From: Anaerolineae bacterium
GTDB taxonomy: Bacteria; Chloroflexota; Anaerolineae; UBA4142; SHND01
Assembly (NCBI GenBank): GCA_021463195.1
Contig: JAJTXZ010000025.1
Location: forward strand, 1 to 56,224
Direction of reading: 5' to 3'
DNA: 56,224 nt
The position numbers were made by a program, and so were the translations under genes. A model generated the notes under the pieces. It worked only from the letters and a program-made list of their open reading frames with translations. It made no database searches and was not told the DNA's origin. Numbering within the stretch: position 1 is the first letter of the stretch; the number at the start of each line of letters is the position of its first letter. This document shows, in pieces, positions 27,050 through 45,480 of this stretch.

Positions 27050-27447
27050 AAAATTTCCAAGACCGAGTGGTGTGGCTCACCGGCGCGTCGTCCGGCATCG
27101 GCGAAGGCGTCGCGTACGCGCTGGCGCAGCAAGGCGCGAAACTGATTTTGTCCGCGCGCCGCGTCGAGGAATTGGAACGCGTCAAAAGAAATTGCGCGGG
27201 CGCTCCATCACACATTGCCATTCTGCCGCTCGATGTTGCCGCTTTGCAAGCCGCGCCGGAAAAAGCAAAACAAGCGCACGCGTTGTTTGGACGCATTGAT
27301 GTTCTCATCAATAACGCGGGCGTTGGTTTTCGCGGCTATGTAAAGGATACGGAGCTTGCGACGCAACAACGCGTGATGCAAGTAAATTATTTTGGGCCTG
27401 TCGCGTTGACGAAAGCGAGCAAATCACCGCATAATTATTTTTGCTGA
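27046..27447 (+). pseudogene. Short-chain dehydrogenase, 5' half (disrupted by insertion)
   Basis: The frame encodes the N-terminal half of a classical SDR: cofactor motif TGASSGIGEG, SARR after strand 2, and structural NNAG in VLINNAGVGFRGYV. The GTG at 27046 overlaps the TGA of the exporter (GTGA), indicating translational coupling; ATG 27031 is an alternative. Native sequence ends at the 10-bp core ACGAAAGCGA (27409-27418). Beyond it the frame runs about nine codons into the mobile element and stops. The missing catalytic half lies at 39475-39915. Joining the two at the core gives an in-frame 267-aa SDR. The half-protein lacks Tyr-Lys and cannot be active. Confidence 0.93.
27409..27418. 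other. attL core
   Basis: This 10-bp ACGAAAGCGA is the left junction. It encodes Thr-Lys-Ala of the host dehydrogenase, the same three codons needed to join the 3' half. Confidence 0.88.
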
Positions 27448-27488
27448 AACGTTAACTATTCCCACACGCATCAACGCAGTTAACTTTG

Positions 27489-27528
27489 TCATGCCGCGCC
27501 AAACATTCATGGCGGCATGATTTTTTTT
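27489..27528 (+). terminator. Rho-independent terminator at the left end of the element
   Basis: TCATGCCGC pairs with GCGGCATGA (14-nt loop), followed by eight Ts. In the integrated state it would stop transcription entering from the host operon. In the excised circle it would lie just after the serine recombinase gene, whose extended frame ends with the TGA in this hairpin. Confidence 0.85.
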
Positions 27529-27573
27529 GTCCAAATTACATACGAGAATGGAGATTCTAATACAGGTGAGACA

Positions 27574-28602
27574 ATGAACACACCAACCGAACTTGCCGCG
27601 CTTGCGGCAACCGAACCGACCAACGCGCGCGCGTTGATTATTCCGAACGCCGCGCGCGTTCCGCTTGACCAAAACGCGGCGGCGGTCTATCTCGCGTCTC
27701 TTGCATTTGGCAGTCGGCGCACCATGCGCGACGCGCTGAATACTATCGCGGCAATGCTCACGAACGGCGACGCCGACGCGCTAACCTTGAATTGGACTGC
27801 GCTGCGCTTTCAACACACTGCGGCGATTCGCGCGAAACTCGCGCAAGAGTATAGCGCGGCGACCGCGAATAAAATGCTATCGGCTTTGCGCGGTGTTCTC
27901 AAAACGAGTTGGCGGCTTGGGCAAATGAGCGCGGACGATTACGCGCGCGCGGCGGATGTTCAAAGCGTGCATGGCGCGACGTTACCACGCGGGCGCGCGC
28001 TTTCAAGCGGCGAAATTGACGCGCTTATGACCGCGTGCGCGAACGATGCGAGCGCGGCGGGCGCGCGGGATGCGGCGATTATTGCGCTGTTGCGCGTGGG
28101 CGGGCTGCGGCGCGCGGAAATCTGCGCGTTGAACTTTGACGATTACGACGCCGAGACGGGCGCGTTAACGATTCGCGGCAAACGCAACAAGGAACGCGCG
28201 GGCTATGTGGCGAACGGGGCAAAGGACGCGTTAGAGGATTGGCTGATTTTGCGCGGGAATGAAACAGGCGCGCTGTTTTGCCCTATCTCGAAAGGCGGAA
28301 CAATCATTCTACGGCGGATGTATCCCGAAGCGATTTTTAATCTGTTGTGCAAACGCGCGGCGCAGGCGGGCGTCAAGAATCTTTCACCACATGATTTTAG
28401 GCGGACGTTTGTTAGCGATTTACTTGACGCGGGCGCGGATATTGCGACTGTGCAACGCCTCGCGGGACATGCGAACGTGCAAACCACCGCGCGTTATGAC
28501 CGACGCGGCGAGCAAGCGAAACGGAAAGCGATTGCGTTATTGCATGTTCCGTATCGCAAACGCGCCGCGTCCATTGTTGAAATGCGCGGCGAAACGCGAT
28601 AA
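27574..28602 (+). CDS. Tyrosine recombinase / phage-type integrase
   Basis: The 342-aa protein has a SAM-like core-binding N-terminal domain and a catalytic domain with the expected residues: Arg in RVGGLRRAEICALN, His-x-x-Arg in SPHDFRRTFVSDLL, His in LAGHANVQTTARYDRR and the nucleophilic Tyr in that same block. A Lys in the beta-hairpin (RGKRNKERAGYV) is also present. ATG 27574 follows GGTGAG; the frame upstream is non-coding. Because the element ends look like serine-integrase sites, this enzyme may resolve multimers or integrate elsewhere. A terminator follows the gene. Confidence 0.93.
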   Translation: MNTPTELAALAATEPTNARALIIPNAARVPLDQNAAAVYLASLAFGSRRTMRDALNTIAAMLTNGDADALTLNWTALRFQHTAAIRAKLAQEYSAATANKMLSALRGVLKTSWRLGQMSADDYARAADVQSVHGATLPRGRALSSGEIDALMTACANDASAAGARDAAIIALLRVGGLRRAEICALNFDDYDAETGALTIRGKRNKERAGYVANGAKDALEDWLILRGNETGALFCPISKGGTIILRRMYPEAIFNLLCKRAAQAGVKNLSPHDFRRTFVSDLLDAGADIATVQRLAGHANVQTTARYDRRGEQAKRKAIALLHVPYRKRAASIVEMRGETR

Positions 28603-28722
28603 AATGCGCGGCGAACAGACATTCTAATAAAAACAAACGCGCTCCGCGATGCTGTCAACATCTTGGAGCGCATACGCCAAACCGACGTGAACGGCTTGGC
28701 AAAGCGAGTATAGCAGTTTTAA

Positions 28723-28762
28723 GCCGTTCGCGTCAAACCAGACGCGGGCGGCTTTTTGTTTT
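28723..28762 (+). terminator. Rho-independent terminator after tyrosine recombinase
   Basis: GCCGTTCGCGTC pairs with GACGCGGGCGGC (two G-T wobbles, 6-nt loop), followed by TTTTTGTTTT. It ends the integrase transcript just ahead of the next gene. Confidence 0.8.
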
Positions 28763-28776
28763 GCGGAGACGATGCT

Positions 28777-29619
28777 ATGACAAAGAACATAGAATTTTAC
28801 TTCAAGGGAACGCCCTACCAATTCGCGACGTTTGCGATTGACTTGGGAACGCGCCAACTCGAAAACAACTCTTTGATGTGGCAACAAAACGAACGCGCCA
28901 CGTTGCCGTATCTGCCCCATCCCCCAAAGTTTGAAGCGGACACGAACCCTATCGGCATCGAATTGGTGGTTGACAATCCCGACGTTCACTGCGACTTGAC
29001 CGCGCAATTCTTAAACGGGCGCACACTCGTTACGGGGGCATTTTCGCCCGACGATTGGGCAGAGATTGAAACAACCTGCATGCGACTTTTTGACGAATTG
29101 ATGCAACACGAATTGATTGACACGCTGACTTCCTCGCAACGCGGGCGGAGACAAATCAAAATGCTATCAAGCACACTCATTGACGCGGGCAAGTATCAAG
29201 AGTTAATCGAATACCTTGCTGATAGTGAAACCGATAACGTCACATTGCCGCGCGAGTGTCTGGTCAAAATCTTTACGAATCCGAGTTTACGCGTTCCTGT
29301 TGAAATTTTAGAAAAAGTTACGCGTGACGATTCGCTGTTTGTAAATTGGAATCGGCGCGAATTAATACAAATTGTGCGCGGTGAGAGTGTGTCAAGCGCG
29401 CCCGCGCCGACAGAACAACCGACTTGGCGCGGCAACGGCGAACCGCCAAAAACAAGGGCAGAGAAAATTAAAGCCATTCAAGCGTGGGATGCAATCCCGC
29501 GCGATGAACGTCCACCACTCGCCGATTGGCTGATTGAAAATTTCGGAACTGATTACGCAACGGGCGAGATGCTTGTTCCGTTGTCAACTTTTCGAGGTTG
29601 GCGAAATTTGATAGATTAA
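28777..29619 (+). CDS. Hypothetical protein of mobile element
   Basis: The 280-aa soluble protein matches no family I know. Residues 1-75 look like beta strands with IGIELVVDNPDVHCDL, the middle is helical (ETTCMRLFDELMQHELID), and the C-terminus after a Pro-rich linker reads WDAIPRDERPPLADWLIENFG. It has no signal peptide. ATG 28777 follows CGGAGACGATGCT; an ATG seven codons earlier lies in the terminator tail. Normal amino acid balance and strong codon bias support a real gene. Confidence 0.7.
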   Translation: MTKNIEFYFKGTPYQFATFAIDLGTRQLENNSLMWQQNERATLPYLPHPPKFEADTNPIGIELVVDNPDVHCDLTAQFLNGRTLVTGAFSPDDWAEIETTCMRLFDELMQHELIDTLTSSQRGRRQIKMLSSTLIDAGKYQELIEYLADSETDNVTLPRECLVKIFTNPSLRVPVEILEKVTRDDSLFVNWNRRELIQIVRGESVSSAPAPTEQPTWRGNGEPPKTRAEKIKAIQAWDAIPRDERPPLADWLIENFGTDYATGEMLVPLSTFRGWRNLID

Positions 29620-29623
29620 AACT

Positions 29624-29667
29624 CGTCGCGTTTTCGTCGCGTTTTCGTCGCGTTTTCGTCGCGTCAA
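29624..29667. repeat. Four 11-bp tandem repeats
   Basis: The unit CGTCGCGTTTT is repeated directly at 29624, 29635 and 29646, with a partial fourth at 29657. It lies between the hypothetical gene and a terminator. Iteron-like spacing of one helical turn suggests a protein-binding site, for example for the RHH protein just downstream. Confidence 0.75.
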
Positions 29668-29673
29668 TCTGAT

Positions 29674-29706
29674 AAAACTGAAGCATGAAAAATGCTTCAG
29701 TTTTTT
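29674..29706. terminator. Bidirectional intrinsic terminator
   Basis: A perfect 13-bp stem (AAAACTGAAGCAT, loop GAAAA) is followed by six Ts and preceded by an A-run on the other strand. Confidence 0.88.
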
Positions 29707-29714
29707 ATTTCTCG

Positions 29715-29906
29715 ATGCGCGTCGCGTTGCGTTCCGACGAGCGCGACGCGTTGATGCGTCTCTCGCGTTCCGAGCGTCGCGACCCACGCGCGCAGGCGGC
29801 GATGCTGATTCGTCGCGCGTTGGAAAATGCGGGTTATCTGAAAAATGAATCAATGACCGACGCCGAGCGCGACGCGGAGGGGGTGAATCATGCTGCAACA
29901 AATTGA
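29715..29906 (+). CDS. Small ribbon-helix-helix-like protein
   Basis: The 63-aa frame reads MRVALRSDERDALMRLSRS near its start, then RDPRAQAAMLIRRALENAGYL. This resembles Arc/CopG-like small DNA-binding proteins of plasmids and phages (an N-terminal strand, then two helices). An earlier ATG at 29685 lies inside the terminator hairpin, so ATG 29715 is preferred. It opens a tightly overlapping run of genes leading to the helicase. It may bind the 11-bp repeats upstream (inference). Confidence 0.6.
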   Translation: MRVALRSDERDALMRLSRSERRDPRAQAAMLIRRALENAGYLKNESMTDAERDAEGVNHAATN

Positions 29907-30075
29907 CAAGACGCGCGACGCGGAGGCGGTCTTACTCGCGCGCGTGTATTCATTGATTTTGTCGTTTTCCGACCCCGACGCGCGCGACGCGCAAACCGAA
30001 CCGCGCGACGCGGAAAAAACGCGCGTTGATACGCGTCGCGCAAAAATCGAGGTGAGCGATGAAGACGAAAAATAA
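29890..30075 (+). CDS. Small acidic hypothetical protein
   Basis: A 61-residue frame overlaps the preceding gene by 17 bp and the next by 17 bp. The start (MLQQIDKTRDAEAVLLARV) looks helical; the rest is charged with Asp/Glu/Arg and probably disordered. No motif is recognised. Overlap with its neighbours supports an operon. Confidence 0.45.
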   Translation: MLQQIDKTRDAEAVLLARVYSLILSFSDPDARDAQTEPRDAEKTRVDTRRAKIEVSDEDEK

Positions 30076-30283
30076 AAAACCCGCGCTTGCGACGCGGGCG
30101 GGGCGAAACGCGCGCGGGCAAGCGAACGTTTCTGCGCGCTATTCTACGTCGCGTTTTTTCTTGCGTCAACTTGCCGCGCGCGCGACGCAGAACGCGCGAC
30201 GCTGCGAACGTGAAACGGCGAAGCGAAAATTTGAGCGTCTCGCGCGTTTTCTCGAAGTTTGCGCGCGCGGTGGTGTGCGATGA
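30059..30283 (+). CDS. Small basic hypothetical protein
   Basis: The 74-aa frame is very Arg/Lys-rich, with a helix-prone C-terminus (KRKFERLARFLEVCARGG). It begins inside the previous frame and ends in an ATGA overlap with the next gene. It could bind nucleic acid, but no family is apparent. Confidence 0.45.
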   Translation: MKTKNKKPALATRAGRNARGQANVSARYSTSRFFLRQLAARATQNARRCERETAKRKFERLARFLEVCARGGVR

Positions 30284-30639
30284 AAACGCAATCGCTGAAA
30301 CGCGTCCCGATTCGCGCAAACTCAAAAATAATCGGCGAAGTGTGCGGCGAGACGTTTTACAAAAATGTTCTTGGGTCCAAACATTTTTTACGCGTTCCGC
30401 GTGCCATCGCCTTTGACGTTTCAAGTTTGAATGACGCCGAAAATGCCGACGCGCGCTTTGTGCAAGTAACAGACGCCGAAACATCGCGCGTTTATCGCGC
30501 AAGCATCGCGACGATTCGCGCAAAAGGTTTTCGCGTCGCGCGCGGCTTTGGTGAGCAAATTGCACTCGCGCTTGAGTTTTGGAATCGCGACGCCGAACCG
30601 CTTGTGACGCAGTTAAATTTTTTGGAGCGCGTGACGTGA
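30280..30639 (+). CDS. Hypothetical protein upstream of helicase
   Basis: The 119-aa frame starts with an ATGA overlap and ends in a TGATG overlap with the helicase gene, so all are probably translated together. The mixed alpha/beta sequence includes GEVCGETFYKNVLGSKHFLRV and FVQVTDAETSRVYRASIATI. It has no membrane segment. Similar small genes ahead of primase-helicases are common in integrative elements, but I do not recognise the family. Confidence 0.65.
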   Translation: MKTQSLKRVPIRANSKIIGEVCGETFYKNVLGSKHFLRVPRAIAFDVSSLNDAENADARFVQVTDAETSRVYRASIATIRAKGFRVARGFGEQIALALEFWNRDAEPLVTQLNFLERVT

Positions 30640-32723
30640 TGATTCTTGAAAACGTGAACACCATGCGCGCCCAAGACGCAATCGAGACGCTGACAGACGC
30701 CGAGCAAACCGCGTTAGACGAACTCGCGCGCAAACTGCGAACTCTCGCGGCGGGGGATGTTCTCGTCGAAATGGAATACCACGACGCCGAGTTAGCAAGG
30801 TGGGGCGAGTGGCTAGCGGAATCGCTTGACGATGAAACGCGCGACTTTGCCGCGTATGCTGTGAGCGACCATCGGCGGCGGCGCGAAGTGTGCGGGCGTG
30901 AACTCTCACGACGCAATCACGCGGACAGGTTGCCAAGCGGCGGCGCGCGTTCGCGCATCACACGCGAATTGATTGACGAAGTTAAAACGCGCGTTGACTT
31001 GGTGGAACTCATGCAAGCGCGCGGCGTGGAATTAAAAACGCGCGGCGATAAAGCGCAAGGGCGCTGTCCGTTTCACGCAGACAAAACGCCGTCTTTGTCT
31101 GTGGACAACGCGCGCGGGCTGTGGCATTGTTTTGGCTGCAACGCGGGCGGCGATGCGATTCGATTCGTGATGCAATGCGACAACGTTGAGTTTATGCCCG
31201 CGCTGCAAATTCTCGCCGAACGCGCGGACGTGGAATTACCGACGACGCGTGCGCCCAGGCGCGCGACGCCAACCGACGCGCCGAAAACCGACGCGCCGTA
31301 TTTGTCTTTTGACGAAATTCTTGCCGCGTTCGCGCGCGCCGAGACGGGCGACGCGGAATTGTTAGCGCGTTTGTTCGCCGACAAAATTTGTTTTGACCAT
31401 GCCGAAAGCGCTTGGTATTTGTTCAATCAACACTCTTGGACGCGCGACGAAACGGGCAAGGTTGAAAAATTCGTGACCGATGAAATTGCGGCGCAATACC
31501 TCTTTGCGAGCGCCGAACGCAAACGCCAAAATGGAGAGGACGCGGACAAGCAAATCAAAGAACTTTACGCGCGCGCGAACTCTTTGCGGAATCGCAACAA
31601 AATCGCGAATGTCCTTGACCGCGCGCGCAAACAAGACGCGCTGGCGTTACGCGGCAACGAATGGGACAACGATTCGATGCTACTTGGCTGCGCGAATGGC
31701 GTGTTGGATTTACGCTATCGCGATTTTGAATTTCGCGACGGCGCGCCGCGCGATTACATTCGCACAATCGCGCCGACGGAATGGCAAGACCTACACGCGC
31801 CCGCGCCGCGCTGGGAAAAATTCTTGCAAGAGATTTTCGCGGGAGATGCTGACCTAATCGCGTTCATTCAACGTTGGTTTGGTTACTGTCTGACCGCCGA
31901 TGTTTCCGAAAACGCGTTCGTGGTGTTGCATGGCGAAGACGGCCGCAACGGCAAGCGCATCTTGACCGAAACGATTGCGCGCGCGCTGGGCAGTTACGCG
32001 ACGGCGGGCGAGGATGATTTATTTTTGGACGCCAAAGACCAACGCGCGGGCGCACCCAAGCAATTTTTGGTTGACCTTGCGGCGCGGCGGCTGGTCTTGC
32101 TTTCCGAGACGCGCGAGGGCGCGCGTTTCAATCTCGCGCGCATTAAACAACTCGCGGGTGGAGACACGATTAAAGCGCGCGGAATGTTCGCCGCGCGCGG
32201 CGTGGAAATCGCGCCGACTTGGAAATTCGTTCTCTCTACGAATCGGCTGCCGCACGCCGACGCCGACGACGCGGCATTTTACGAGCGCGTTTTTATCGTG
32301 AAATTGACACAGCGATTCGTCACGCGACCCGACCCGACGGACCCGAATGAGCATCCGCGCGACCCGAAACTCGCCGAGACGCTGCGCGGCGAGCAAGGCG
32401 GGATTCTGGCTTGGCTTGTGCGCGGCTGTCTGGAATGGCAACGCGCGGGTTTGAATCCGCCCGATAGCGTGCGGCTGGCGACGCAGGAATACCGCGCGGG
32501 CGAAGATACGTTAACGCAATTTATCGCAGCGTGTTGCGTTGTGAATCCGAACGCTGTAACGCGCGCAAATGAACTGTATGCCGCATATCGCAAATGGGCG
32601 GACGAAAACGGACTCGGCGCAATGAGCGGAATGGCGTTCGCGAAACGCATGGCGAAGCGATTCGCGAAAAGGCGCACAGAGCGCGGTAATGTCTATGTTG
32701 GCATCGGTTTATTGAACCTGTAG
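30639..32723 (+). CDS. CHC2 zinc finger fused to D5/SF3 replication helicase
   Basis: The 694-aa protein likely initiates and unwinds the element's own replication. Residues ~105-185 are a DnaG-type CHC2 zinc finger: LIDEVKTRVDLVELMQARGV, CPFHADKTPSLSV, then LWHCFGCNAGGDAIRFVM. From ~360 a D5_N-like region follows (LLGCANGVLDLR). The SF3 helicase has Walker A GEDGRNGKRIL (~431), a Walker B region RRLVLLSETREG (~485) and sensor motif FVLSTNRLP. A C-terminal D5-type winged helix ends the protein. I see no TOPRIM or archaeo-eukaryotic primase catalytic residues between finger and helicase. The ATG overlaps the upstream stop (TGATG). Confidence 0.9.
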   Translation: MILENVNTMRAQDAIETLTDAEQTALDELARKLRTLAAGDVLVEMEYHDAELARWGEWLAESLDDETRDFAAYAVSDHRRRREVCGRELSRRNHADRLPSGGARSRITRELIDEVKTRVDLVELMQARGVELKTRGDKAQGRCPFHADKTPSLSVDNARGLWHCFGCNAGGDAIRFVMQCDNVEFMPALQILAERADVELPTTRAPRRATPTDAPKTDAPYLSFDEILAAFARAETGDAELLARLFADKICFDHAESAWYLFNQHSWTRDETGKVEKFVTDEIAAQYLFASAERKRQNGEDADKQIKELYARANSLRNRNKIANVLDRARKQDALALRGNEWDNDSMLLGCANGVLDLRYRDFEFRDGAPRDYIRTIAPTEWQDLHAPAPRWEKFLQEIFAGDADLIAFIQRWFGYCLTADVSENAFVVLHGEDGRNGKRILTETIARALGSYATAGEDDLFLDAKDQRAGAPKQFLVDLAARRLVLLSETREGARFNLARIKQLAGGDTIKARGMFAARGVEIAPTWKFVLSTNRLPHADADDAAFYERVFIVKLTQRFVTRPDPTDPNEHPRDPKLAETLRGEQGGILAWLVRGCLEWQRAGLNPPDSVRLATQEYRAGEDTLTQFIAACCVVNPNAVTRANELYAAYRKWADENGLGAMSGMAFAKRMAKRFAKRRTERGNVYVGIGLLNL

Positions 32724-32725
32724 GG

Positions 32726-32814
32726 CTGTATGGTCTGTAGTCAAATTCCACAAACTCGCGGGGTCTAATCCCTCGCGTATAGAAGATTGTGGAAAACTCC
32801 TACATACCATACAG
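32726..32814. other. Large imperfect palindrome, possible replication origin
   Basis: Three nested stems fold this 89-bp stretch: CTGTATGGTCTGTAG with CTACATACCATACAG (one mismatch), TTCCACAA with TTGTGGAA, and CGCGGGG with CCCTCGCG. The reverse of 32787-32796 reads TTTTCCACAA, which fits the DnaA-box consensus TTWTNCACA. It starts 3 bp after the helicase stop. Origins next to the replication gene are usual in phage satellites and plasmids. An RNA structure is the alternative. Confidence 0.55.
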
Positions 32815-32843
32815 CATAGTTATTTTTTGAAGATTTACCCTAC

Positions 32844-33071
32844 ATGACTAGCAAACCCATCGGCATCACGCCCGGACGCGTGACGGAAATCAAGATTGAA
32901 TCGAAAGACATGCCGCGCGGACAGGTGAAACGGCGCAAGCCCTTGCTGCCGCGCCCGCGGCGTTGTCTGCGGACAAGCCAAGCGCACGAGTTGGTATCAG
33001 AGTTAATAAGCGGCGTGCGGGCGTCTGAACTGCCTGAAAAAAATGAAAAAATTCCGTGTTTCACTCTCTAG
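32844..33071 (+). CDS. Hypothetical basic protein truncated by the repeat array
   Basis: A 75-aa frame, Lys/Arg/Pro-rich (RGQVKRRKPLLPRPRRCLR), starts at ATG 32844 and ends at a TAG inside the first array repeat. Its last ~28 codons are the flanking segments called A and B here, which reappear beyond the array. After the second A copy, an open frame in the same phase continues to about 33684. The original gene may therefore have run from 32844 through A into that frame before the array interrupted it. Function unknown. Confidence 0.4.
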   Translation: MTSKPIGITPGRVTEIKIESKDMPRGQVKRRKPLLPRPRRCLRTSQAHELVSELISGVRASELPEKNEKIPCFTL

Positions 33072-33390
33072 GAATCGTTCTAACGCGGTGCTAGACCCAT
33101 GGTGAACAGTAATAAAACTGACCGAAAACTGTTTCACTCTCTAGGAATCGTTCTAACGCGGTGCTAGAATATGAGGTTTTCTCAGGTTTTCGTAACCGAT
33201 TTCCGTTTCACTCGCTAGGATGCGTTCTAACGCGGCGCTAGTCAATATGAGCAAATGTCTCGTGACGAGACATTTGCCAAGTTTCACTCTCTAGGAATCG
33301 TTCTAACGCGGTGCTAGCGTCTGAACTGCCTGAAAAAAATGAAAAAATTCCGTGCACGAGTTGGTATCAGAGTCAATAAGCGGCGCGCGG
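32985..33390. repeat. Mirror-ordered flanking repeats around the array (A-B ... B-A)
   Basis: Segment A (32985-33020, 36 bp) recurs at 33355-33390 with two differences. Segment B (33022-33058, 37 bp) recurs identically at 33318-33354. Both are direct repeats, yet their order is reversed: A-B precedes the array and B-A follows it. A, B, the repeats and the spacers are all 36-39 bp. Confidence 0.85.
33058..33317. CRISPR. Array of four 37-bp repeats with three spacers (CRISPR-like, no cas)
   Basis: Repeats lie at 33058-33094, 33131-33167, 33205-33241 and 33281-33317; copies 1, 2 and 4 are identical and copy 3 has four substitutions. Each starts GTTTCACTC and ends GCTAG. Spacers are 36, 37 and 39 bp and unrelated to one another. 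The geometry is that of a CRISPR mini-array. Against this, there are no cas genes in the window, spacer 3 is almost entirely a perfect 12-bp hairpin (GCAAATGTCTCG, loop TGA), and the period (73-76 bp, about seven helical turns) directly behind a helicase would also suit long origin iterons. The label is provisional. Confidence 0.55.
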
Positions 33391-33548
33391 GGCTTGCAAG
33401 TGTCCGCAATAGACGCATCAAGTGTCCTAATGGACATACGACGCGGGCTTGTCTGTGGACATTATCGGCATGCGGGGCGGCGACCAATTGGTCATATCGG
33501 CACGGGGGCGAACGGGCGCGGGCGCGATTCTGAAATGGAGAATCGCCC

Positions 33549-33836
33549 ATGTCGCGCACCTATCGCCAACAAAATTACCGCCATTCCAACCGACGCCCGA
33601 AGGACTTTTTACGGCGCAACTATGACGCCCTCGCGTTGGCGGCACATTTCGAGGATGGACTATCGGCACTCGCGTTCGCGGTAATTTTTTTCGCCCTATC
33701 GGATTTGCGTAAAGCCGAGACGCGCGTCGACGCCGAGCGCTTTTTACAAGACACGTGGTTTGACACACTCGCCGAAGGGCTGGAACTCTCGCCCGAACAT
33801 TGGCGGCAAATGGCAGAGCGCGTAACGGCACTATGA
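33549..33836 (+). CDS. Hypothetical protein
   Basis: The 95-aa protein has a basic N-terminus (RTYRQQNYRHSNRRPKDFLR), a hydrophobic helix-rich middle (LALAAHFEDGLSALAFAVIFFAL) and an acidic end (LELSPEHWRQMAERV). GGAG precedes the ATG by about 10 nt. It is the first gene after the repeat array and starts a same-strand run of small genes ending with the methyltransferase. No family recognised. Confidence 0.6.
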   Translation: MSRTYRQQNYRHSNRRPKDFLRRNYDALALAAHFEDGLSALAFAVIFFALSDLRKAETRVDAERFLQDTWFDTLAEGLELSPEHWRQMAERVTAL

Positions 33837-33837
33837 C

Positions 33838-33869
33838 GGCACATTAGCGGCACATTGGCGGCACATGAC
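33838..33869. repeat. Three 11-bp direct repeats ahead of zinc-motif gene
   Basis: GGCACATTAGC, GGCACATTGGC and GGCACATGACT follow in tandem and lead into the ATG at 33865. They are one helical turn apart and may be an operator or a replication slippage product. Confidence 0.5.
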
Positions 33870-34275
33870 TAGCAAACGCATCACTACCAGAACAAGTAAA
33901 ACGTGCAAGGCGAAAAACGGGCGCGGCGAGCCGTGCGCGGCGCACGCGGGCGCAGACGGCTATTGCGCGTTCCATTCGCCCGCGCATGGCAAAGCGCGCG
34001 CCGAAGGACACAAGCGCGGCGGCGAACGCAATCGCGTTCCACACGGCGGCGGCGCCGAAGGATTGCCCAAGCGAATACGCACGTTGACCGATGTCCTAGC
34101 TGTGCTGGACTACGCGCTCGCGGAAACCTTGCCAATGGAGAACAGCATCCAGCGCGGGCGATTACTTGTCGCGCTGGCGCACGCGTTCGTCGAAGCAATT
34201 AAAACGGGCGAACTCGAAGCGCGGGTAGAGGCAATCGAAAATGCGTTGAAAGCGCGGGGCGAGGTGAAAGCATGA
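33865..34275 (+). CDS. Small Cys/His zinc-motif protein
   Basis: The 136-aa protein has an N-terminal zinc-binding pattern: CKAKNGRGEPCAAHAG, then GYCAFHSPAH. This CxnGxPC...CxxH arrangement is common in small phage and mobile-element proteins (DUF5763-like, from memory). A Gly/Arg-rich linker leads to a helical C-terminal half (RTLTDVLAVLDYALAETLPM and VEAIENALKARG). It overlaps the next gene by ATGA, so both are likely translated together. Role unknown; packaging or regulation is possible. Confidence 0.65.
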   Translation: MTSKRITTRTSKTCKAKNGRGEPCAAHAGADGYCAFHSPAHGKARAEGHKRGGERNRVPHGGGAEGLPKRIRTLTDVLAVLDYALAETLPMENSIQRGRLLVALAHAFVEAIKTGELEARVEAIENALKARGEVKA

Positions 34276-34607
34276 ATCTGGCATCACGCACCGATAGAGC
34301 CATGCGCCAAGTCCGCGCAGAGTTGGAACGTGAGGAGCTTGGCTTGATGGATGCTCTCGCCGATGCAATCAAGGCGAATTTTACGCAAGCGCAATGCGCC
34401 GAGATTGCGGCAATGTTAGAAGCGAGCATCGGCAAGCAAGCATCGGCAAATACGGACGCCCGCGCGTTGACGGCGCAAGTTTGGGACAAGTTGCCCGAAA
34501 CCTTGCGCGAACGCTGCTTGAACTATGGGCAACGCGTTTACGCGCTAACGGGTGAGCCGTATGCCGATTTTCTTGCGGAACTTGGCGCGCCAAAGGATAC
34601 ACAATGA
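34272..34607 (+). CDS. Hypothetical helical protein
   Basis: The 111-aa, mostly helical protein includes AMRQVRAELEREELGLMDAL and LPETLRERCLNYGQRVYALT. It starts with an ATGA overlap and ends in another with the next gene. No motif is recognised. The gene order (zinc-motif protein, two helical proteins, methyltransferase) looks like a conserved cassette of the element. Confidence 0.6.
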   Translation: MNLASRTDRAMRQVRAELEREELGLMDALADAIKANFTQAQCAEIAAMLEASIGKQASANTDARALTAQVWDKLPETLRERCLNYGQRVYALTGEPYADFLAELGAPKDTQ

Positions 34608-34849
34608 GCATGAACGCGAAAACTTTGCAAACGCGCGTTGAACAAATCGAAACGAGGTTACGCGAGACAGCGGCGCAAAATGATTGGTTTGAGATTGTGA
34701 AAGCGCAAGGCGTAGAACGCGCGCAAATCACACTCGCCGCGCGCGGTATGACGGCGGAACTCGAAACGCTGCGCGAAATGATAGCAGAGGCGCACGCCCA
34801 AGTAGAGCAATGGGAGCGCGCGACTTTTGGAGAACTTGACGATGCTTGA
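34604..34849 (+). CDS. Small coiled-coil protein
   Basis: The 81-aa frame is predicted coiled coil throughout (LQTRVEQIETRLRETAAQN and AELETLREMIAEAHAQVEQW). ATGA overlap upstream and 8-bp overlap with the methyltransferase downstream tie it to the operon. Function unknown. Confidence 0.55.
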   Translation: MSMNAKTLQTRVEQIETRLRETAAQNDWFEIVKAQGVERAQITLAARGMTAELETLREMIAEAHAQVEQWERATFGELDDA

Positions 34850-35528
34850 GCAAAACAGATTGCCGCAATTCACGAATCCGATTCGCCACCCCGCGCGGTT
34901 TTCGGCTGCGCTGTTCCCGATAATGGCGCGCTATCTGCGCGCGGGTTGGCTTGTGCTTGACCCGTTTGCGGGTGTGGGCGGACTTGCCAAGTTGGGCTTT
35001 ACGGGCGCGCGGTTTGTGTTGAATGAAATCGAGGGGAACGTTATCGCCCAAGCGCAAGGCAAATGCCGCGTCATGGGCAACGCGCTAACTTTGCCGTTTG
35101 CAAATGAGACGTTTGACGCGATTGTGACATCCCCGACCTATGGTAATCGCATGGCTGACCATCACCGCGCGCGCGATGCGTCCAAGCGGAACACCTACTA
35201 CCACGCGTTCGGGAGCGCGTTGCACGCGGACAATACGGGCTTGCTCCAATTTGGCGCGGAGTATTGCGAGCGTCACGCGCGGGCGTGGGGGGAAAGTGTG
35301 CGGGTGTTGAAACAGGACGGGCTATTTGTGTTGAACGTATCCGACCACATTCGAGGGGGGCGGCAAGTGGATGTCTCGCAATGGCATCGCGAAATGCTAT
35401 GCGGCATGGGCTTGACCTTGCGCGAATGTCATAGCGTCAAGACGCCGCGTAATCGCTTTGGGGCGAATGGAAATCTGCGCTGCGAGTATGAATTCGTTTT
35501 CGTTTTCGAGAAGGTGAATTTGGAATGA
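34842..35528 (+). CDS. Orphan DNA methyltransferase
   Basis: The 228-aa protein has SAM-binding motif I LVLDPFAGVGGLAKL and a catalytic-type TSPTYGNRM, close to the TSPPY motif of N4-cytosine or N6-adenine methyltransferases. The RHPARFSAALFPIMARYL region ahead of motif I suits this class. The C-terminal strands end FVFVFEKV. ATG 34842 overlaps the previous stop. No restriction enzyme is near it on the element, so it may protect the element's DNA from host restriction or act in regulation. The Pro-to-Thr change in motif IV should be tested. Confidence 0.8.
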   Translation: MLEQNRLPQFTNPIRHPARFSAALFPIMARYLRAGWLVLDPFAGVGGLAKLGFTGARFVLNEIEGNVIAQAQGKCRVMGNALTLPFANETFDAIVTSPTYGNRMADHHRARDASKRNTYYHAFGSALHADNTGLLQFGAEYCERHARAWGESVRVLKQDGLFVLNVSDHIRGGRQVDVSQWHREMLCGMGLTLRECHSVKTPRNRFGANGNLRCEYEFVFVFEKVNLE

Positions 35529-35602
35529 CGTTTCACCGCGCGGTGAGCTTGTCTGCGGACAATGCGCGGACGATTGCACTTTGACAACTGAATGATAGGG
35601 TA

Positions 35603-35631
35603 TTGCGCGGCAAGCGGGCGCGGTTTATAAT
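35603..35631 (+). promoter_or_regulatory. Promoter for the excisionase-like gene
   Basis: TATAAT at 35626-35631 has TTGCGC 17 bp upstream (35603-35608). The HTH gene starts 38 bp later with a TAGGAG site. The rest of 35529-35669 shows no gene. Confidence 0.55.
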
Positions 35632-35669
35632 CTCGCGCAAGGGCAAAAAACTTTCTAGGAGCGCGGGCT

Positions 35670-35879
35670 ATGGCGAAACAAGACGATTGGATTACGACGA
35701 AAGAGGCGAGCGAATTGACGGGATACACACCAGACTATATCCGCGACTTGGCTGCTCTTGGCAAGATTCAAGCGCGCAAGATTGCGACGATATGGCTGGT
35801 GAGTAAAAAAAGTCTATTGGCGCACAAGCGCGCGGCGGACAAATTAGGTGAAAAAAGAGGGCGGAAATCTGGTAGTTGA
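35670..35879 (+). CDS. Excisionase-like HTH protein
   Basis: The 69-aa protein is a compact winged helix of the MerR/excisionase type: WITTKEASELTGYTPDYIRD, then LAALGKIQARKIATIWLVSKKSL. Such proteins recognise DNA bends and act as recombination directionality factors or small regulators. TAGGAG lies about 12 nt upstream of the ATG. Its own promoter and position between the cassette and the serine recombinase suit control of excision, though directionality factors of serine integrases are diverse and this role is inferred. Confidence 0.78.
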   Translation: MAKQDDWITTKEASELTGYTPDYIRDLAALGKIQARKIATIWLVSKKSLLAHKRAADKLGEKRGRKSGS

Positions 35880-35903
35880 CTTTTGCGAAAACGGGTTTAT
35901 AAT
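35876..35903 (+). promoter_or_regulatory. Sigma-70-type promoter of structured RNA
   Basis: TTGACT (35876-35881) and TATAAT (35898-35903) are 16 bp apart, near consensus. Transcription would start about 35910. The nearest gene start is more than 200 bp away, with an intrinsic terminator between. Confidence 0.75.
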
Positions 35904-35909
35904 TTCCAA

Positions 35910-36049
35910 TAGTTGTAAATTTCAAATCCTAAAACATGCCGCGCAAGTGCGCTAACACTTACACGGCACTAACCCGAAAATTGTGCGTGACAATTTACGG
36001 GCTGAAACGAATTATATACCAGAACTCTATCACGCGATAGAGTTTTTTT
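35910..36049 (+). ncRNA. Putative ~140-nt structured RNA
   Basis: Between a near-consensus promoter and an intrinsic terminator lie three hairpins and no gene. Stem 1 pairs TGCCG..AAGTG with CACTT..CGGCA (about 35938-35967). Stem 2 pairs CCCG.AAATTGT with ACAATTT.CGGG (about 35973-36001). Stem 3 is the terminator. It may act in trans (copy number or regulation) or as a leader attenuator of the SWIM-finger gene 78 bp beyond the terminator. I recognise no known RNA family. No clear complementarity to the 37-bp repeats was found by eye. Confidence 0.6.
36023..36049 (+). terminator. Intrinsic terminator of structured RNA
   Basis: AACTCTATC pairs with GATAGAGTT (loop ACGC), followed by a run of Ts. 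Confidence 0.88.
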
Positions 36050-36126
36050 ATACGAGCAAGATGATAGCCGACGTTCACGCCGTCACGCTATTGTCTTGCT
36101 CGTTTCATTCAATCGAGGCGCAAAAA

Positions 36127-36417
36127 ATGTTAGCCACACTCACACCTACCGAACGCGTGAACCCGAACACTGCCACCGACGCGCGCACAATCGAATTTAT
36201 CACACCGAACGCGCTGCGCTGTCATTGCCAAGAATATCGCACGAATCATTTTTGCTTGCATTTGGTCTTTTACGCGGCGGCGAAAATTCGCGCGTTTCAA
36301 GAACGAAACGCCGCGCCGACGCACGCGGATTTTGACGGCTGCGAGCATCGCAATTTGCAAGGCGATAACTATGCGCTGCATTGCTTGGACTGTGGCGCAG
36401 TATTGGAAACGTTCTAA
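36127..36417 (+). CDS. SWIM zinc-finger protein
   Basis: The 96-aa protein contains a textbook SWIM motif CxCx8CxH in RCHCQEYRTNHFCLHL, followed by a second possible zinc site CEH...CLDCGAVLE. SWIM fingers bind DNA or mediate protein contacts and occur in recombination-related and transposase proteins. ATG 36127 follows GAGGCG; the open frame extends upstream through the RNA terminator but without coding character. It lies downstream of the structured RNA, which may control its expression. Confidence 0.75.
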   Translation: MLATLTPTERVNPNTATDARTIEFITPNALRCHCQEYRTNHFCLHLVFYAAAKIRAFQERNAAPTHADFDGCEHRNLQGDNYALHCLDCGAVLETF

Positions 36418-36547
36418 ACGCACGAAATGAGCGCGGAGGTGATGCAAATGACATGACCAAGAACATTAAAGGACGCGTAAAAATAAAAATAAAATCGGCG
36501 TCCCTGTCCCGATAGAACTTGAACGCCGATAGTAGTTACCGAACAAC

Positions 36548-36595
36548 CGAGATTGCGGCAACCGCATACGATTCTAACACGATTGCCGCAATCTC
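36548..36595. repeat. 14-bp inverted repeat upstream of membrane-protein gene
   Basis: CGAGATTGCGGCAA pairs perfectly with TTGCCGCAATCTCG across a ~20-nt loop, ending about 12 bp before ATG 36608. A smaller inverted repeat (ATCGGCGT with ACGCCGAT) precedes it. These may form an operator or a translation-controlling hairpin. No gene was accepted in 36418-36607. Confidence 0.65.
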
Positions 36596-36607
36596 GAATA
36601 AACAAAA

Positions 36608-37372
36608 ATGAACAACAAAATTGTATATTCTCTCATTCCGATTGGCGCGGCGTTAGTGGCGGGCGGGATTCAAACCGCCATTATCGCTTACGCTTTTTCA
36701 AGTGAGCAATGGTATATCGCGTCATTACTGATTGCGTGCGTATGGATTACCGCGGCAATGGACGCGGCGGCATTTCATCATAGCGCGGTCAATGGCGCGA
36801 CAGGCGCGCAAAAGATTTTCCTAGCGTTGTCTGCAATCTCGCTTGTAATCGTCTTGGCGATTGACTTGGTTTGGATGTTCGCGCCACAAGCATTTGACAC
36901 GAGCGACGCGATTATCAAAGACCTATCATACGCGACAGGCATCAACTTGGCAGTATCGGTATTCTGTCTGTTGGCGTGGATATTCTTTAGCCAAGACCAC
37001 GTGGACGACCGCGAGGCATCACGTATGGAGAGTGACGCGCGGCGCGAGCAAAGAATGAATTGGCTGCAATCGTCCGAAGCCAAAGGTTTTTTTGGGCGCG
37101 AAGTGCGGCAAGAACACATTGACCGCATTGCGAAACGGCAACGCCGCGCGCCATTTGCGATTGCGGAACAGGTGAGCGCGTCCGACGCGCCGCGCGCGAC
37201 AAATGCGCTTGGCAATTTAACGCCAACCGAAATTACATTGCTGCAATCTGTTCTGGATAAAACGCGCGGTGGGAATGGCAACGGAAACACTTTGCACGCG
37301 GACGCGCCCGCGCTGCCCAAGTTGGAGACGCGCAAACGCAGAGGGACAGAGCGCGACGACCCAAACGCGTAA
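36608..37372 (+). CDS. Four-helix membrane protein with cytoplasmic tail
   Basis: The 254-aa protein has four hydrophobic segments in residues 1-135 (SLIPIGAALVAGGIQTAIIA, WYIASLLIACVWITAAMDAA, IFLALSAISLVIVLAIDLVW, INLAVSVFCLLAWIFF). A charged, helical ~115-residue tail follows with EASRMESDARREQRMNWLQS and ends in a disordered basic stretch. No family recognised. Such topology occurs in element-encoded exclusion or membrane-sensing proteins, but that is speculation. Confidence 0.7.
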   Translation: MNNKIVYSLIPIGAALVAGGIQTAIIAYAFSSEQWYIASLLIACVWITAAMDAAAFHHSAVNGATGAQKIFLALSAISLVIVLAIDLVWMFAPQAFDTSDAIIKDLSYATGINLAVSVFCLLAWIFFSQDHVDDREASRMESDARREQRMNWLQSSEAKGFFGREVRQEHIDRIAKRQRRAPFAIAEQVSASDAPRATNALGNLTPTEITLLQSVLDKTRGGNGNGNTLHADAPALPKLETRKRRGTERDDPNA

Positions 37373-37395
37373 CGGGAGAGACGCAACCGATTGAC

Positions 37396-37728
37396 TTGCA
37401 ACCTCTCCCGAACCTCGCGACAGCATGGCGCATCGAAATTCAAAAGCGCGGGCGGTATTGGCAATGGCGGCGCGGCAGTCACGCCAAACGCGCGGCAAAA
37501 TATGGCGGCAAGTTTGATTTACTCGCCGATGAAAGGAAACAGGAATATGACCAAAACAAAGCAAGACGCGCCGAGCGCGCGCAAAGCCAAGAGCGAACGA
37601 CGCAAGCCAAGCCAAGCGCGAACGCGGCGCATGACGCCGAGCATCACCGCGCCCGAAGCGCTGCAACTGCTAGAAAGCGCGGTGAGTTATTGCCAACAAG
37701 CGGGCTTGGGCGTGACCGCGGCGAATGA
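37396..37728 (+). CDS. Putative small Arg-rich protein (TTG start)
   Basis: The 110-aa frame has a folded-looking N-terminus (LATAWRIEIQKRGRYWQWRR, then HAKRAAKYGGKFDLLAD). It resembles short 'YxYxRxxxGGKxxxxYxG' domains seen in mobile elements. The tail is polar and probably shadows the next frame. The TTG start follows GGGAGAG at poor spacing. It overlaps the following gene by about 180 bp in another frame, so only one may be real past 37547. Confidence 0.4.
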   Translation: MQPLPNLATAWRIEIQKRGRYWQWRRGSHAKRAAKYGGKFDLLADERKQEYDQNKARRAERAQSQERTTQAKPSANAAHDAEHHRARSAATARKRGELLPTSGLGRDRGE

Positions 37729-37855
37729 ACAGGACGCGCTTTGCTTGTTCATTCCGCGCGCGCAATACATCGTAAGCACCGACGGCACACGCGCGGCATT
37801 CCAGTTGATAGAGACAACCGCGCCGATGTCGCAAACGGCGCGCGCGACAATTTGA
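37547..37855 (+). CDS. Hypothetical protein upstream of serine recombinase
   Basis: The 102-aa protein has a basic disordered N-terminus and a folded C-terminal half (ITAPEALQLLESAVSYCQQA, then DALCLFIPRAQYIVSTDGTR). AAAGGAAACAGGAAT precedes the ATG, a good ribosome site. It lies 72 bp before the recombinase on the same strand and may be co-transcribed. Family unknown. Confidence 0.6.
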   Translation: MTKTKQDAPSARKAKSERRKPSQARTRRMTPSITAPEALQLLESAVSYCQQAGLGVTAANEQDALCLFIPRAQYIVSTDGTRAAFQLIETTAPMSQTARATI

Positions 37856-37927
37856 ACACACGAAACGCGCGGCGCGGGCTTTTCTGCGGAAAACTCGCGC
37901 CGCGCACAATTCACGAGAGGCGAAACG

Positions 37928-39499
37928 ATGAAACGGGCTATCATTTACGCACGCGTAAGCACAGACGACCAAGCGCAAAACGGGTATAGTCTTTCAACAC
38001 AGTTAGAAGCAATGCGAATTTATGCCGAAGCGAACGGCATAAAAGTTGTGCGCGAACTCCAAGACGATTGCAGCGGCGCGAAACTTGACCGACCCGCGCT
38101 AGACACTTTGCGCGCGATGCTGGAACGCAAAGAGGCGGACGCGGTAATAGTGTATGCGGCGGACAGACTTAGCCGCAATCTCGCGCACCTTTTAATTTTG
38201 CGCGAGGAATTCAACCGCGCGGGCGTCGAATTGCATTACGCCAATCGCGGGAAATCGCAAGACACGGCGGAAAGTCGTCTATTAGAAAACGTGGAGGGCG
38301 TGATAGCGGAATTCGAGCGCGAGAAAATCAAAGAGCGCACGCGGCGCGGCAAATTCGCCAAAATCAAAGCGGGAAAATGGATTGGTAACGGCACTGCGCC
38401 GTATCCTTTTCGTCAAATTGGAAAAGGCGCGGACGCGCGGCTAGAGATTGACCAAGAACAGGCGGCGATTGTGCGGCGCATTGTGGACATGCTGTTAGGG
38501 CAAAACGGCTATATGCCTGTTGGTATAAATTCGATTGCGCGGCAATTAACGGCGGAGGGTGTCCCAACCGCAAACAAGGCGCGCGGCTGGCGGACGTGTT
38601 TTTTGCGCGGTTTGCTCTCTAACAAAGAATTGCTTGGTATTTTTGAGCGAATGGGCATTCTAGTCGAATTGCCTGACCTCGCCATTCTTGACCGCGAAAC
38701 GTTTGACCGCGCGCAAGACGTGTTAAAGCATAATCGCCTTGCAAGCATGCGCGCGCGGTCATATCCCTATGTGTTTAGCGGTTTTGCAAGATGCGTTTGC
38801 GGGAGACTGTTATGCGGCACGCAAATTGGCAAAAAGGAAAGCGGCGATTATCATTATTATATGTGCGGCGCGCGCATACATGACCGACATTTAACAGACT
38901 GCAAAGAGGGCAGCATTAACGTCAAAATTTTCGAGCCGCTTGTATGGAATTGGCTTATCGAATTGTTGACCGATAGCGCCAAATTAGAAAAGGGTATCTA
39001 CAAGTATTTTGAAAGCCGCGAAAGTGAATTGAGCAAAACGCGCGAGCGGCGCGCCCTAACATTAGATTTGATGCGCCGCGCCGATAGGAAAATGCAAAAC
39101 CTTTCGGCAGATTTAAGCGAGATGGAAAGCCGCGCGGGACGTGCGGCATTGCGCGCGGACATTGACCGCTTAGGGAAAGAAAAAGACGCGCTTTCGGCTG
39201 CGCTTGTCGAAATAGATGCGCTTTTAGCGCGCCGCGAAGTAACAGACACTGATATAGCAACGATTCGAGCAACCGCGCGGGACATTCGCGCCAAGTTAGA
39301 GAGAAAACCCACCTACGAGCAATCCCGCGCCCTTTTCGCTGTGCTTGACTTGAAAATAAAACTACGGCATAACGAGAACGGACGTGAATTGTTTGTAACG
39401 TGCGGTTTGGCATTAGACGGACAAACACTTGCGATTAAGCCGCGCTTAAATTATGTGGTAGAAAAAGAGGATTCACGAAAGCGACACTGCCGTATATGA
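37928..39499 (+). CDS. Large serine recombinase (integrase of the element)
   Basis: The 523-aa enzyme has a resolvase domain with nucleophile Ser in YARVSTDDQ and conserved DRLSRN and EREKIKERTRRGK. A recombinase domain (NGTAPYPFRQIG onward) and a zinc ribbon (RCVCGRLLCGTQ and YYMCG..C) follow, then a coiled coil (~360-450). This is the likely integrase/excisionase of the island. Its last codons cross the attR core: residues through Arg519 are element-encoded and the final four come from the host gene. In the excised circle the frame would instead continue 33 codons into the left end and stop inside the terminator hairpin there. Confidence 0.95.
   Translation: MKRAIIYARVSTDDQAQNGYSLSTQLEAMRIYAEANGIKVVRELQDDCSGAKLDRPALDTLRAMLERKEADAVIVYAADRLSRNLAHLLILREEFNRAGVELHYANRGKSQDTAESRLLENVEGVIAEFEREKIKERTRRGKFAKIKAGKWIGNGTAPYPFRQIGKGADARLEIDQEQAAIVRRIVDMLLGQNGYMPVGINSIARQLTAEGVPTANKARGWRTCFLRGLLSNKELLGIFERMGILVELPDLAILDRETFDRAQDVLKHNRLASMRARSYPYVFSGFARCVCGRLLCGTQIGKKESGDYHYYMCGARIHDRHLTDCKEGSINVKIFEPLVWNWLIELLTDSAKLEKGIYKYFESRESELSKTRERRALTLDLMRRADRKMQNLSADLSEMESRAGRAALRADIDRLGKEKDALSAALVEIDALLARREVTDTDIATIRATARDIRAKLERKPTYEQSRALFAVLDLKIKLRHNENGRELFVTCGLALDGQTLAIKPRLNYVVEKEDSRKRHCRI
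39475..39484. other. attR core
   Basis: The second copy of ACGAAAGCGA joins element and host. It lies inside the serine recombinase reading frame. Confidence 0.88.
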
Positions 39500-43458: not shown

Positions 43459-45480
43459 ATGAAAAAGCTCTTTCTGCTTATCGTTCTAACTGTGACCGCG
43501 CTGGTCGTCGTCACCGGTTGCGGCAATCCTGTTCCCACTCCTCCGGGTCAACAGCCCGGCGGCTCAAACGGCGCGAGCGGGTTGCCGGCGGATGCCGCCT
43601 CAGTTGCCACCGAACGCGGTCTTTCGCAAGATGATATTTATGCCGCGTTGAAAACTTTTACCCCTTCGGGACAACTCGACCCGTACATCATGTTCGCTTC
43701 CGGCGGTCAGGGCGGCCAAGTTTTGGTCGTTGGCGTGCCTTCGATGCGAATTCTAAAGTTGATTTCCGTGTTCACTCCGGAACCGTGGCAAGGTTATGGT
43801 TTTGGCGGTTCGGGCGATACGATTTTGGCGCAAGGCAAAGTTAACGATAAACCTGTCCTCTGGGGCGACACCCATCATCCCGGCCTTTCCGAAACGAATG
43901 GCGAATACGACGGTCAATTTTTGTTTATCAATGACAAAGCCAACGCCCGCGTCGCGGTGATTGATTTGCGTGATTTTGCCACGAAACAGATTGTCAAAAA
44001 TCCGCTCTCGCTCACCGATCATGGCGGCTCGTTCGTCACACCCAATACCGATTACATCATCGAAGGTCCGCAATACGCGGCGCCGTTCGGTTGGGAATAC
44101 GCGGACATTACCACCGATTACAATGAAAAATATCGCGGCGTTATGACGTTGTGGAAATTTGACCGCACGCAGGGACGCATTGATGTCGCGCAATCTTTCG
44201 CGCTCGAATTGCCGCCATACTGGCAAGACCTCTGCGACGCGGGCAAAAAGGGCAGCGACGGTTGGCTGTTCTGCAATTCCATCAACACCGAACTCGCGAT
44301 TGGCGGCATCGAAAATGGCAATCCGCCTTTTGAAGCCGGCACCAGCAAGAACGACACGGATTATTTGCACATCATAAATTGGAAGAAAGCGGAAGAACTG
44401 TTCAAAGCGGGCAAGACGGAAAAAGTCAAAGACATGGCGCTCATTCGTCTCGACACCGCGATCAAAGAAGGCGTGGTATTCTTTACGCCTGAACCGAAAT
44501 CGCCGCACGGCGCGGACGTAACCCCCGGCGGTGAATACGTAGTGGTCGGCGGCAAACTTGATCCGCATGTCACCATCTATTCGTTCGACAAAATCCAAAA
44601 AGCCATCGCCGCGTTGAATGATAGCTCGCCCAAAGACGCGTATGGCATTCCGGTGTTACCGCTCGATGCGACGATGGAAGCCCAAGTCGAACTCGGCCTT
44701 GGACCCTTGCACACCGTCTATGACGACAAAGGTTACGCCTATACCTCTTTGTTCCTCGATTCAGTCGTCGCGCGTTGGACGCTCGGCGGGCCGTATCAAT
44801 CGTTGCATGCGGAAGAACCCTGGACGCTCGTGCAGAAATTGCCCGTGCAGTATAATATCGGTCACATCGCCGCGGCGGAAGGCGACACCGCGTCGCCAGA
44901 CGGCAATTTTGTCGTGGCGTTGAACAAGTGGAGCATTGACCGCTTTGCGAATGTGGGACCGCTGCTCCCGCAAAATTTCCAACTCGTGGACACTTCTAGA
45001 CCCGGCGACCAGATGAAAGTGTTGTATGATATGCCTATCGGCATGGCAGAGCCGCATTACGCGCAAATCATCAAAGCCGACAAACTCAAGCCATGGGAAG
45101 TGTATCCGCCCGGCACGAACGCGGAAACTATGCAGCCCGACCCGAATGCCATCAGTGCGCCCGACCAAGCCAAAATCGTTCGCAATGGCAACAAGGTTGA
45201 AATTTGGACTGCGGTCATTCGCTCGCACTTTACGCCCGAACACGTCAAACTTAAAAAAGGCGACCAAGTGACCTGGCACTTTAGCAATCTCGAACAGACG
45301 CGCGATGCCACACACGGTTTCGCTCTGCCCGGTTACAATGTCAATCTATCGCTTGAACCCGGCAAGACTGAAACACTTGAATTTGTCGCGGACAAAGATG
45401 GCACCTTTGCGTTCTATTGCACCGAATTTTGTTCGGCGCTGCATCTCGAAATGGCCGGCTATATGATGGTCGAGCCATAA
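43459..45480 (+). CDS. nosZ: Nitrous oxide reductase, clade II-like
   Basis: The 673-aa multicopper enzyme reduces N2O to N2 outside the membrane. The seven-bladed propeller that holds the CuZ cluster shows the expected His motifs: GDTHHPGLSETNGEYDGQF, LTDHGGSFVTPN, SPHGADVTPGGEYVVVGG, GLGPLHTVYDDKGYAYTS and IGHIAAAEGDT. The C-terminal cupredoxin domain carries the CuA ligands in FYCTEFCSALHLEMAGYMMV. The N-terminus is a Sec lipoprotein signal (LLIVLTVTALVVVTGC) with a Gly/Pro linker, not a Tat signal with twin Arg. That and the following NosB-like gene mark it as clade II. The downstream genes supply its copper assembly. Confidence 0.97.
   Translation: MKKLFLLIVLTVTALVVVTGCGNPVPTPPGQQPGGSNGASGLPADAASVATERGLSQDDIYAALKTFTPSGQLDPYIMFASGGQGGQVLVVGVPSMRILKLISVFTPEPWQGYGFGGSGDTILAQGKVNDKPVLWGDTHHPGLSETNGEYDGQFLFINDKANARVAVIDLRDFATKQIVKNPLSLTDHGGSFVTPNTDYIIEGPQYAAPFGWEYADITTDYNEKYRGVMTLWKFDRTQGRIDVAQSFALELPPYWQDLCDAGKKGSDGWLFCNSINTELAIGGIENGNPPFEAGTSKNDTDYLHIINWKKAEELFKAGKTEKVKDMALIRLDTAIKEGVVFFTPEPKSPHGADVTPGGEYVVVGGKLDPHVTIYSFDKIQKAIAALNDSSPKDAYGIPVLPLDATMEAQVELGLGPLHTVYDDKGYAYTSLFLDSVVARWTLGGPYQSLHAEEPWTLVQKLPVQYNIGHIAAAEGDTASPDGNFVVALNKWSIDRFANVGPLLPQNFQLVDTSRPGDQMKVLYDMPIGMAEPHYAQIIKADKLKPWEVYPPGTNAETMQPDPNAISAPDQAKIVRNGNKVEIWTAVIRSHFTPEHVKLKKGDQVTWHFSNLEQTRDATHGFALPGYNVNLSLEPGKTETLEFVADKDGTFAFYCTEFCSALHLEMAGYMMVEP

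Follow-up and report, generated by a model that had tools for sequence, protein, structure and literature searches.

The window (the whole 56,224-nucleotide stretch of DNA that was analysed) carries, behind a small gene that we call gene X, an array with the layout A B R S1 R S2 R S3 R B A (32984-33390), in which four copies of a 37-bp repeat R and three spacers form the core (33058-33317) and two further units, B and A, enclose it on both sides. We consider it likely that this is a CRISPR array that originated within an integrated mobile element, through off-site integration of the Cas1-Cas2 type in which the inserted pieces became the next target. The array together with its flanking layers is not explicable by chance.

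The repeats are found at 33058-33094 (R1), 33131-33167 (R2), 33205-33241 (R3) and 33281-33317 (R4), and the spacers at 33095-33130 (S1, 36 bp), 33168-33204 (S2, 37 bp) and 33242-33280 (S3, 39 bp). The earlier note had described this core as four 37-bp repeats with spacers of 36, 37 and 39 bp, and the repeat starts at 33058, 33131, 33205 and 33281 bear this out, as do the four substitutions in R3 and the near-perfect palindrome of S3, which it had reported as a third repeat divergent at four positions and a hairpin spacer. Its statement that cas genes are absent holds as well, none being found near the array. What it overlooked are the two flanking layers, both in direct orientation. On the left, unit A (37 bp, 32984-33020) is followed by unit B (37 bp, 33021-33057); on the right, a second B (33317-33353), identical to the left one at 37/37 positions, is followed by a second A (A', 33354-33390) with two substitutions (35/37). 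All units lie on the plus strand in one orientation throughout, their order is mirrored and they abut exactly, with only single shared G's at the junctions.

We scanned about 565 kb for direct-repeat pairs (at least 27/30 at offsets of 50-100, runs of N excluded) and detected, outside cas-linked arrays, only the window array, a copy of it on another contig (C9) of the same genome and one mini-array of a related element. Repeat-rich signals in L029, L032 and L055 were rejected as runs of N. An assembly artefact was likewise rejected, as the two copies are found on two contigs whose flanks are 88-96% identical and whose array states differ. An Rfam search gave no match.

Since all units of A B ... 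B A are direct, neither tandem duplication, nor a single insertion with target duplication, nor inverted duplication can produce the layout. Sequential insertion, in which each event duplicates its target and lands inside the previous insert, does yield it. We ran a forward simulation that started from flank-A-flank, where B (37 bp) duplicates A, R (36 bp) duplicates B, and S3, S2 and S1 duplicate R. These five insertions, which bring in 36-39 bp apiece and duplicate a 37-bp target every time, add 74, 73, 76, 74 and 73 bp and rebuild 487 bp, exactly the length of the window segment. The simulated and the real sequence differ by 6 mismatches, four of them in R3 and two in A'. From the layout one can read, without ambiguity, in which order the two outer events took place, but it does not set the order in which S1 to S3 were inserted. 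The same mirror order of direct, exactly abutting units is present in two separately assembled contigs.

Gene X (32844-33071, plus strand, 75 aa) has unit A as its 3' part and its frame now ends inside R1; once the insert is removed, the frame is open through A'. No exact empty site was identified, and gene X lacks A in both of the related elements G003 and G005. In the history that we propose on the basis of sequence and simulation, a complex that works with host-like lengths, namely a payload of 35-40 bp and a target duplication of 37 bp, would have inserted B into the 37-bp stretch A within gene X, which made A B A. In a second event B, the proposed first inserted piece, would itself have been the target and received R, which led to A B R B A. 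From then on R would have served as the repeat, with S3, S2 and S1 taken up in three further events. We infer that the agent was the type I-A Cas1-Cas2-Cas4 of the host or of a former host. It counts against this history that a canonical Cas1-Cas2 would stay on A as its repeat and would not shift to the inserted piece. Moreover, R3 stands to the left of S3 in both copies, so that stepwise addition at one end is insufficient and a deletion in the C9 copy or repeat conversion is needed.

The window corresponds to contig C62 of a genome of 4.7 Mb, which is 98% complete. The sole cas1 gene of this genome lies within a Cas3-Cas8a-Cas7-Cas5a-Cas6-Cas1-Cas2-Cas4 locus on contig C46, which is typed as I-A by its best-scoring models. 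Beside the cas genes, a 37-bp repeat recurs in 195 exact copies, separated by spacers of 35-40 bp (L009, from 12889 to the contig end; G000:C46:58888-73291), and as this array runs to the contig end the true one is probably longer. The window array shares the 37-bp repeat and the range of spacer lengths with this host array, its duplications being 37 bp and its payloads 36-39 bp; it differs in the repeat sequence, in having 4 and not 195 repeats and in lacking the linkage to cas genes. On the minus strand R is far from identical to the host repeat (19/37), and 6/8 positions agree in the 3' handle (AGTGAAAC in R, ACTGAAAG in the host repeat). Only 0.04% of the 37-mers of the window equal the likeness of R to the host repeat (a background fraction of 0.0004 per test), and the likeness of A, B, S1 and S3 is unremarkable. 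Scored against a profile built from four I-A repeats, R ranks among the top 0.03% of the window, where a few dozen other 37-mers score higher, so membership of R in the I-A repeat family is suggestive, not decisive. R, on which the array appears to have grown, is by these comparisons the sole unit that resembles the host repeat, and this likeness is probably the reason why growth settled there. In the comparison with host CRISPR repeats that the earlier note had proposed, the lengths agree, but at 19/37 the array does not carry the host repeat itself.

We compared R, A, B, S1, S2 and S3 with all 194 spacers of the host array and found no match beyond chance. Host spacer 37 matches the element that carries the window array at 35820-35840 (20/21 bases); the rest of that spacer is unmatched, which makes self-targeting doubtful. 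A palindromic stretch around CTTGTCTGCGGACAAG is present at 32963-32978 and 35547-35562 and at L057 9119, and it also occurs inside host spacer 68.

Among the spacers it is S2 for which a source was found. It matches 12 phage records, at full length or over 35/37 bp, and these matches are in terminase small subunit (TerS) genes. The matches to TerS genes of Brevibacillus phages are full-length with 31/37 identical positions, and 35/37 bp are aligned to the Lactococcus phage TP712. An IMG/VR viral contig (L121) is identical at 34/37 positions, and outside the 20-base search seed 14/17 positions agree (p 1e-5). The frame of this contig that contains the match is a TerS gene with the Terminase_2 domain (Pfam: PF03592, E 1e-25). 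Read in this frame, the reverse complement of S2 encodes EIGYENLRKPHI, a conserved piece of the terminase small subunit, where the viral contig has AIGYENLRKPQI. Judged by these matches, S2 is phage-derived and comes from a terminase gene. In 396 genomes of the class, S2 was found in the window itself only. For B, R, S1 and S3 no source was found in the sequences searched. An 18-mer match of S1 in a viral contig was rejected as chance, with 3/18 positions agreeing outside the seed.

The copy on contig C9 belongs to a sister element of the same genome and has the form A B R3 S3 R B A and sits in the corresponding position behind the same gene. It contains the identical R3 variant and S3, while S1 and S2 are absent. 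The two checks that the earlier note had named, spacers against phage sequences and spacer turnover between copies of the element, thus both gave a positive answer, and both also speak against a replication origin. The C9 state could have arisen by loss of S1 and S2, or the window state by gain; the shared R3 variant would fit a deletion slightly better.

Gene X is found at five places in the genus. Behind a gene X homologue of another species (G001) there is an unrelated mini-array of 37+39+37 bp, consisting of a 37-bp repeat present twice (36/37) and a 39-bp spacer (L056 7429-7567; G001:C176:12429-12567). Its spacer has weak partial phage matches, which we found unconvincing, and neither this spacer nor B has an exact 20-mer in the viral contigs. 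At its edge the mini-array borders on AAAGGTTTATCAAATTTGATAAACCTTT, a palindrome of 28 bp that is perfect. Cas1 has been reported to recognise cruciform DNA, and there are also reports of integration close to inverted repeats (see the discussion in PMC9456107); for this reason the palindrome is a possible attractor, which we note as a lead only. In G003 and G005 gene X is present with no array behind it (2/5 related elements), including G003, where the N-terminal region of the primase-helicase is 68% identical. A single-protein search of viral and genome contigs gave no further relatives.

The array is carried by an element of about 12 kb (about 27419-39484) that splits a short-chain dehydrogenase (SDR) gene at the 10-bp attachment core ACGAAAGCGA, found inside the SDR gene at 27409-27418 and again at 39475-39484. 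The N-terminal part of the SDR precedes the left core and the C-terminal part follows after 39485; joining the flanks by eye gives ALTKATLPYMIEQKSGQ, which is what one would expect in an intact SDR. The element encodes both a tyrosine integrase at its left side (27517-28602, plus strand; Pfam: PF00589, E 2.8e-29) and a large serine recombinase at its right side (37928-39499, plus strand; Pfam: PF00239, E 2.8e-38). Between them, a protein with a DnaG-type zinc ribbon and a D5 primase-helicase (30579-32723, plus strand) precedes gene X, and the gene after the array (33549-33836, plus strand, 95 aa) is conserved in related elements and has no family match. Small proteins and a methyltransferase-like protein are also encoded, and no capsid or terminase gene was detected among the element proteins tested. 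Just outside the element, at 43459-45480, lies a gene for a protein with nitrous oxide reductase propeller and cupredoxin/COX2 domains.

With CRISPR arrays in general, whose direct repeats measure 23-55 bp, the window array shares repeats within this range (37 bp), unique spacers of similar length, a virus-derived spacer and spacer turnover. The array is built like a CRISPR array, but we do not file it as a host-type mini-CRISPR, because no leader was recognised and the host repeat is absent: B resembles the host leader no better than shuffled sequences do (p 0.11-0.27), so that B as a leader mimic was rejected as not significant. No sigma-70-like promoter site was predicted. The earlier proposal of a cas-less CRISPR array is supported in part, by the lengths, the turnover and the phage spacer. 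The array is not a copy of a host array, however, given that R agrees with the host repeat at only 19/37 and that A and B are nested around the core. These nested layers indicate that the array arose in place and is not a borrowed host array.

The main alternative is that a ready-made mini-CRISPR, for instance one recombined from a host array that had R, is borne by the element for inter-element conflict with host Cas proteins, and that the duplications of A and B are accidental. Mini-arrays without cas genes are known in viruses and plasmids (PMC6858448, PMC8616872), which together with the phage match of S2 and the differing spacers of the two element copies is what one would expect of such an array. 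The Sulfolobales viruses SPV1 and SPV2 carry mini-CRISPR arrays with host-like repeats and a leader (PMC6858448), and they share with the window array the small number of spacers, the location on a mobile element, the lack of cas genes, the turnover between relatives and a spacer against a virus. The window array differs from them in that its repeat is only 19/37 identical to that of the host, that it lacks a leader and that it is enclosed by nested duplications. Most published mini-array repeats are identical or very similar to those of the host (PMC8616872), in contrast to R. The solitary repeat units of phages, also described there, are single host-like repeats on mobile elements without cas genes, whereas the window has several repeats and true spacers. 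Furthermore, R was found nowhere else, neither in 400 genomes of the phylum (up to 3 mismatches), nor in IMG/VR and GTDB contigs (20-mer), nor in phages or plasmids, and one insertion cannot give the direct A B ... B A of 37-bp units. We therefore regard a ready-made array as unlikely.

Still less probable, in our view, is an integrase or transposon-like process of another kind that inserts pieces of about 37 bp with 37-bp duplications and has nothing to do with CRISPR adaptation. The nested layout as such needs only an insertion that duplicates its target, and A and B are unlike a CRISPR repeat. Against this stand the combination of lengths, which equals that of the host array, and the phage DNA in S2. 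To our knowledge there is no transposase with a 37-bp target duplication and a payload of 36-39 bp, which also counts against such a process.

A better candidate for the replication origin than the array is the interval at 32725-32815, between the helicase and gene X, where the window has an inverted repeat and where relatives have iteron-like repeats. In the C9 element (L057 8706-9003) runs of the 9-bp AATGACACA in both orientations lie between a large gene (DUF3854) and gene X, a region that is likely to be the origin judging from its repeats, and in G003 9-bp TGTGACAGG repeats, direct and inverted, occupy the same interval before gene X. The long-iteron origin that the earlier note had offered for the array itself, or else a protein-binding region of long interspersed iterons beside the helicase, is very improbable: the array's position behind a D5 primase-helicase, a neighbourhood shared with known iteron origins, its period near seven helical turns and the palindromic S3 would suit it, but the array is not conserved, being absent from G003 and G005 despite gene X, the iteron-like repeats of the relatives are upstream of gene X, after the preceding large gene, and the spacers differ between copies, one of them being phage-derived.

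The preferred reading, a birth in place by nested off-site integration, has its closest parallel in E. coli, where overexpressed Cas1-Cas2 integrates spacers off-site and forms a 'neo-CRISPR' (Nivala, Shipman and Church 2018, as described in PMC11788318 and PMC9456107). According to these accounts, spacer-sized DNA is likewise inserted outside the CRISPR locus and the target duplication makes a new repeat-spacer-repeat. The window array differs from the system described there in being natural, apparently of type I-A and located in a mobile element; moreover, several events follow one another and are nested, and one of the spacers is derived from a phage. In the literature that we searched, the coverage of which is incomplete, we found no paper on natural nested arrays.

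At present the array may function as a mini-array, be no more than a relic, or be neutral. If it is used by Cas6, processed RNAs of about 60-75 nt with the 5' end AGUGAAAC would be expected from the minus strand.

What is known of how a new CRISPR locus starts away from existing arrays comes mostly from overexpression experiments. The locus described here is natural and retains every intermediate target duplication, and hence the order of the outer events is readable. This suggests that inheritance is not the only source of a repeat and that a captured piece can turn into one. More generally, new CRISPR arrays might form de novo in nature through off-site integration in layers: a spacer, once inserted, would act as the next repeat, and this would go on until a repeat-like piece is reached, on which the locus then grows into a working mini-array. 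The stretch behind gene X would be a repeated target of such births, with two independent cases; for this wider claim we see the chances as evenly balanced. The birth of an array is made testable by the locus, with a defined integrase, the defined targets A, B and R and predicted 37-bp duplications. The array looks like the natural fossil of a CRISPR array created from nothing, inside an ordinary gene.
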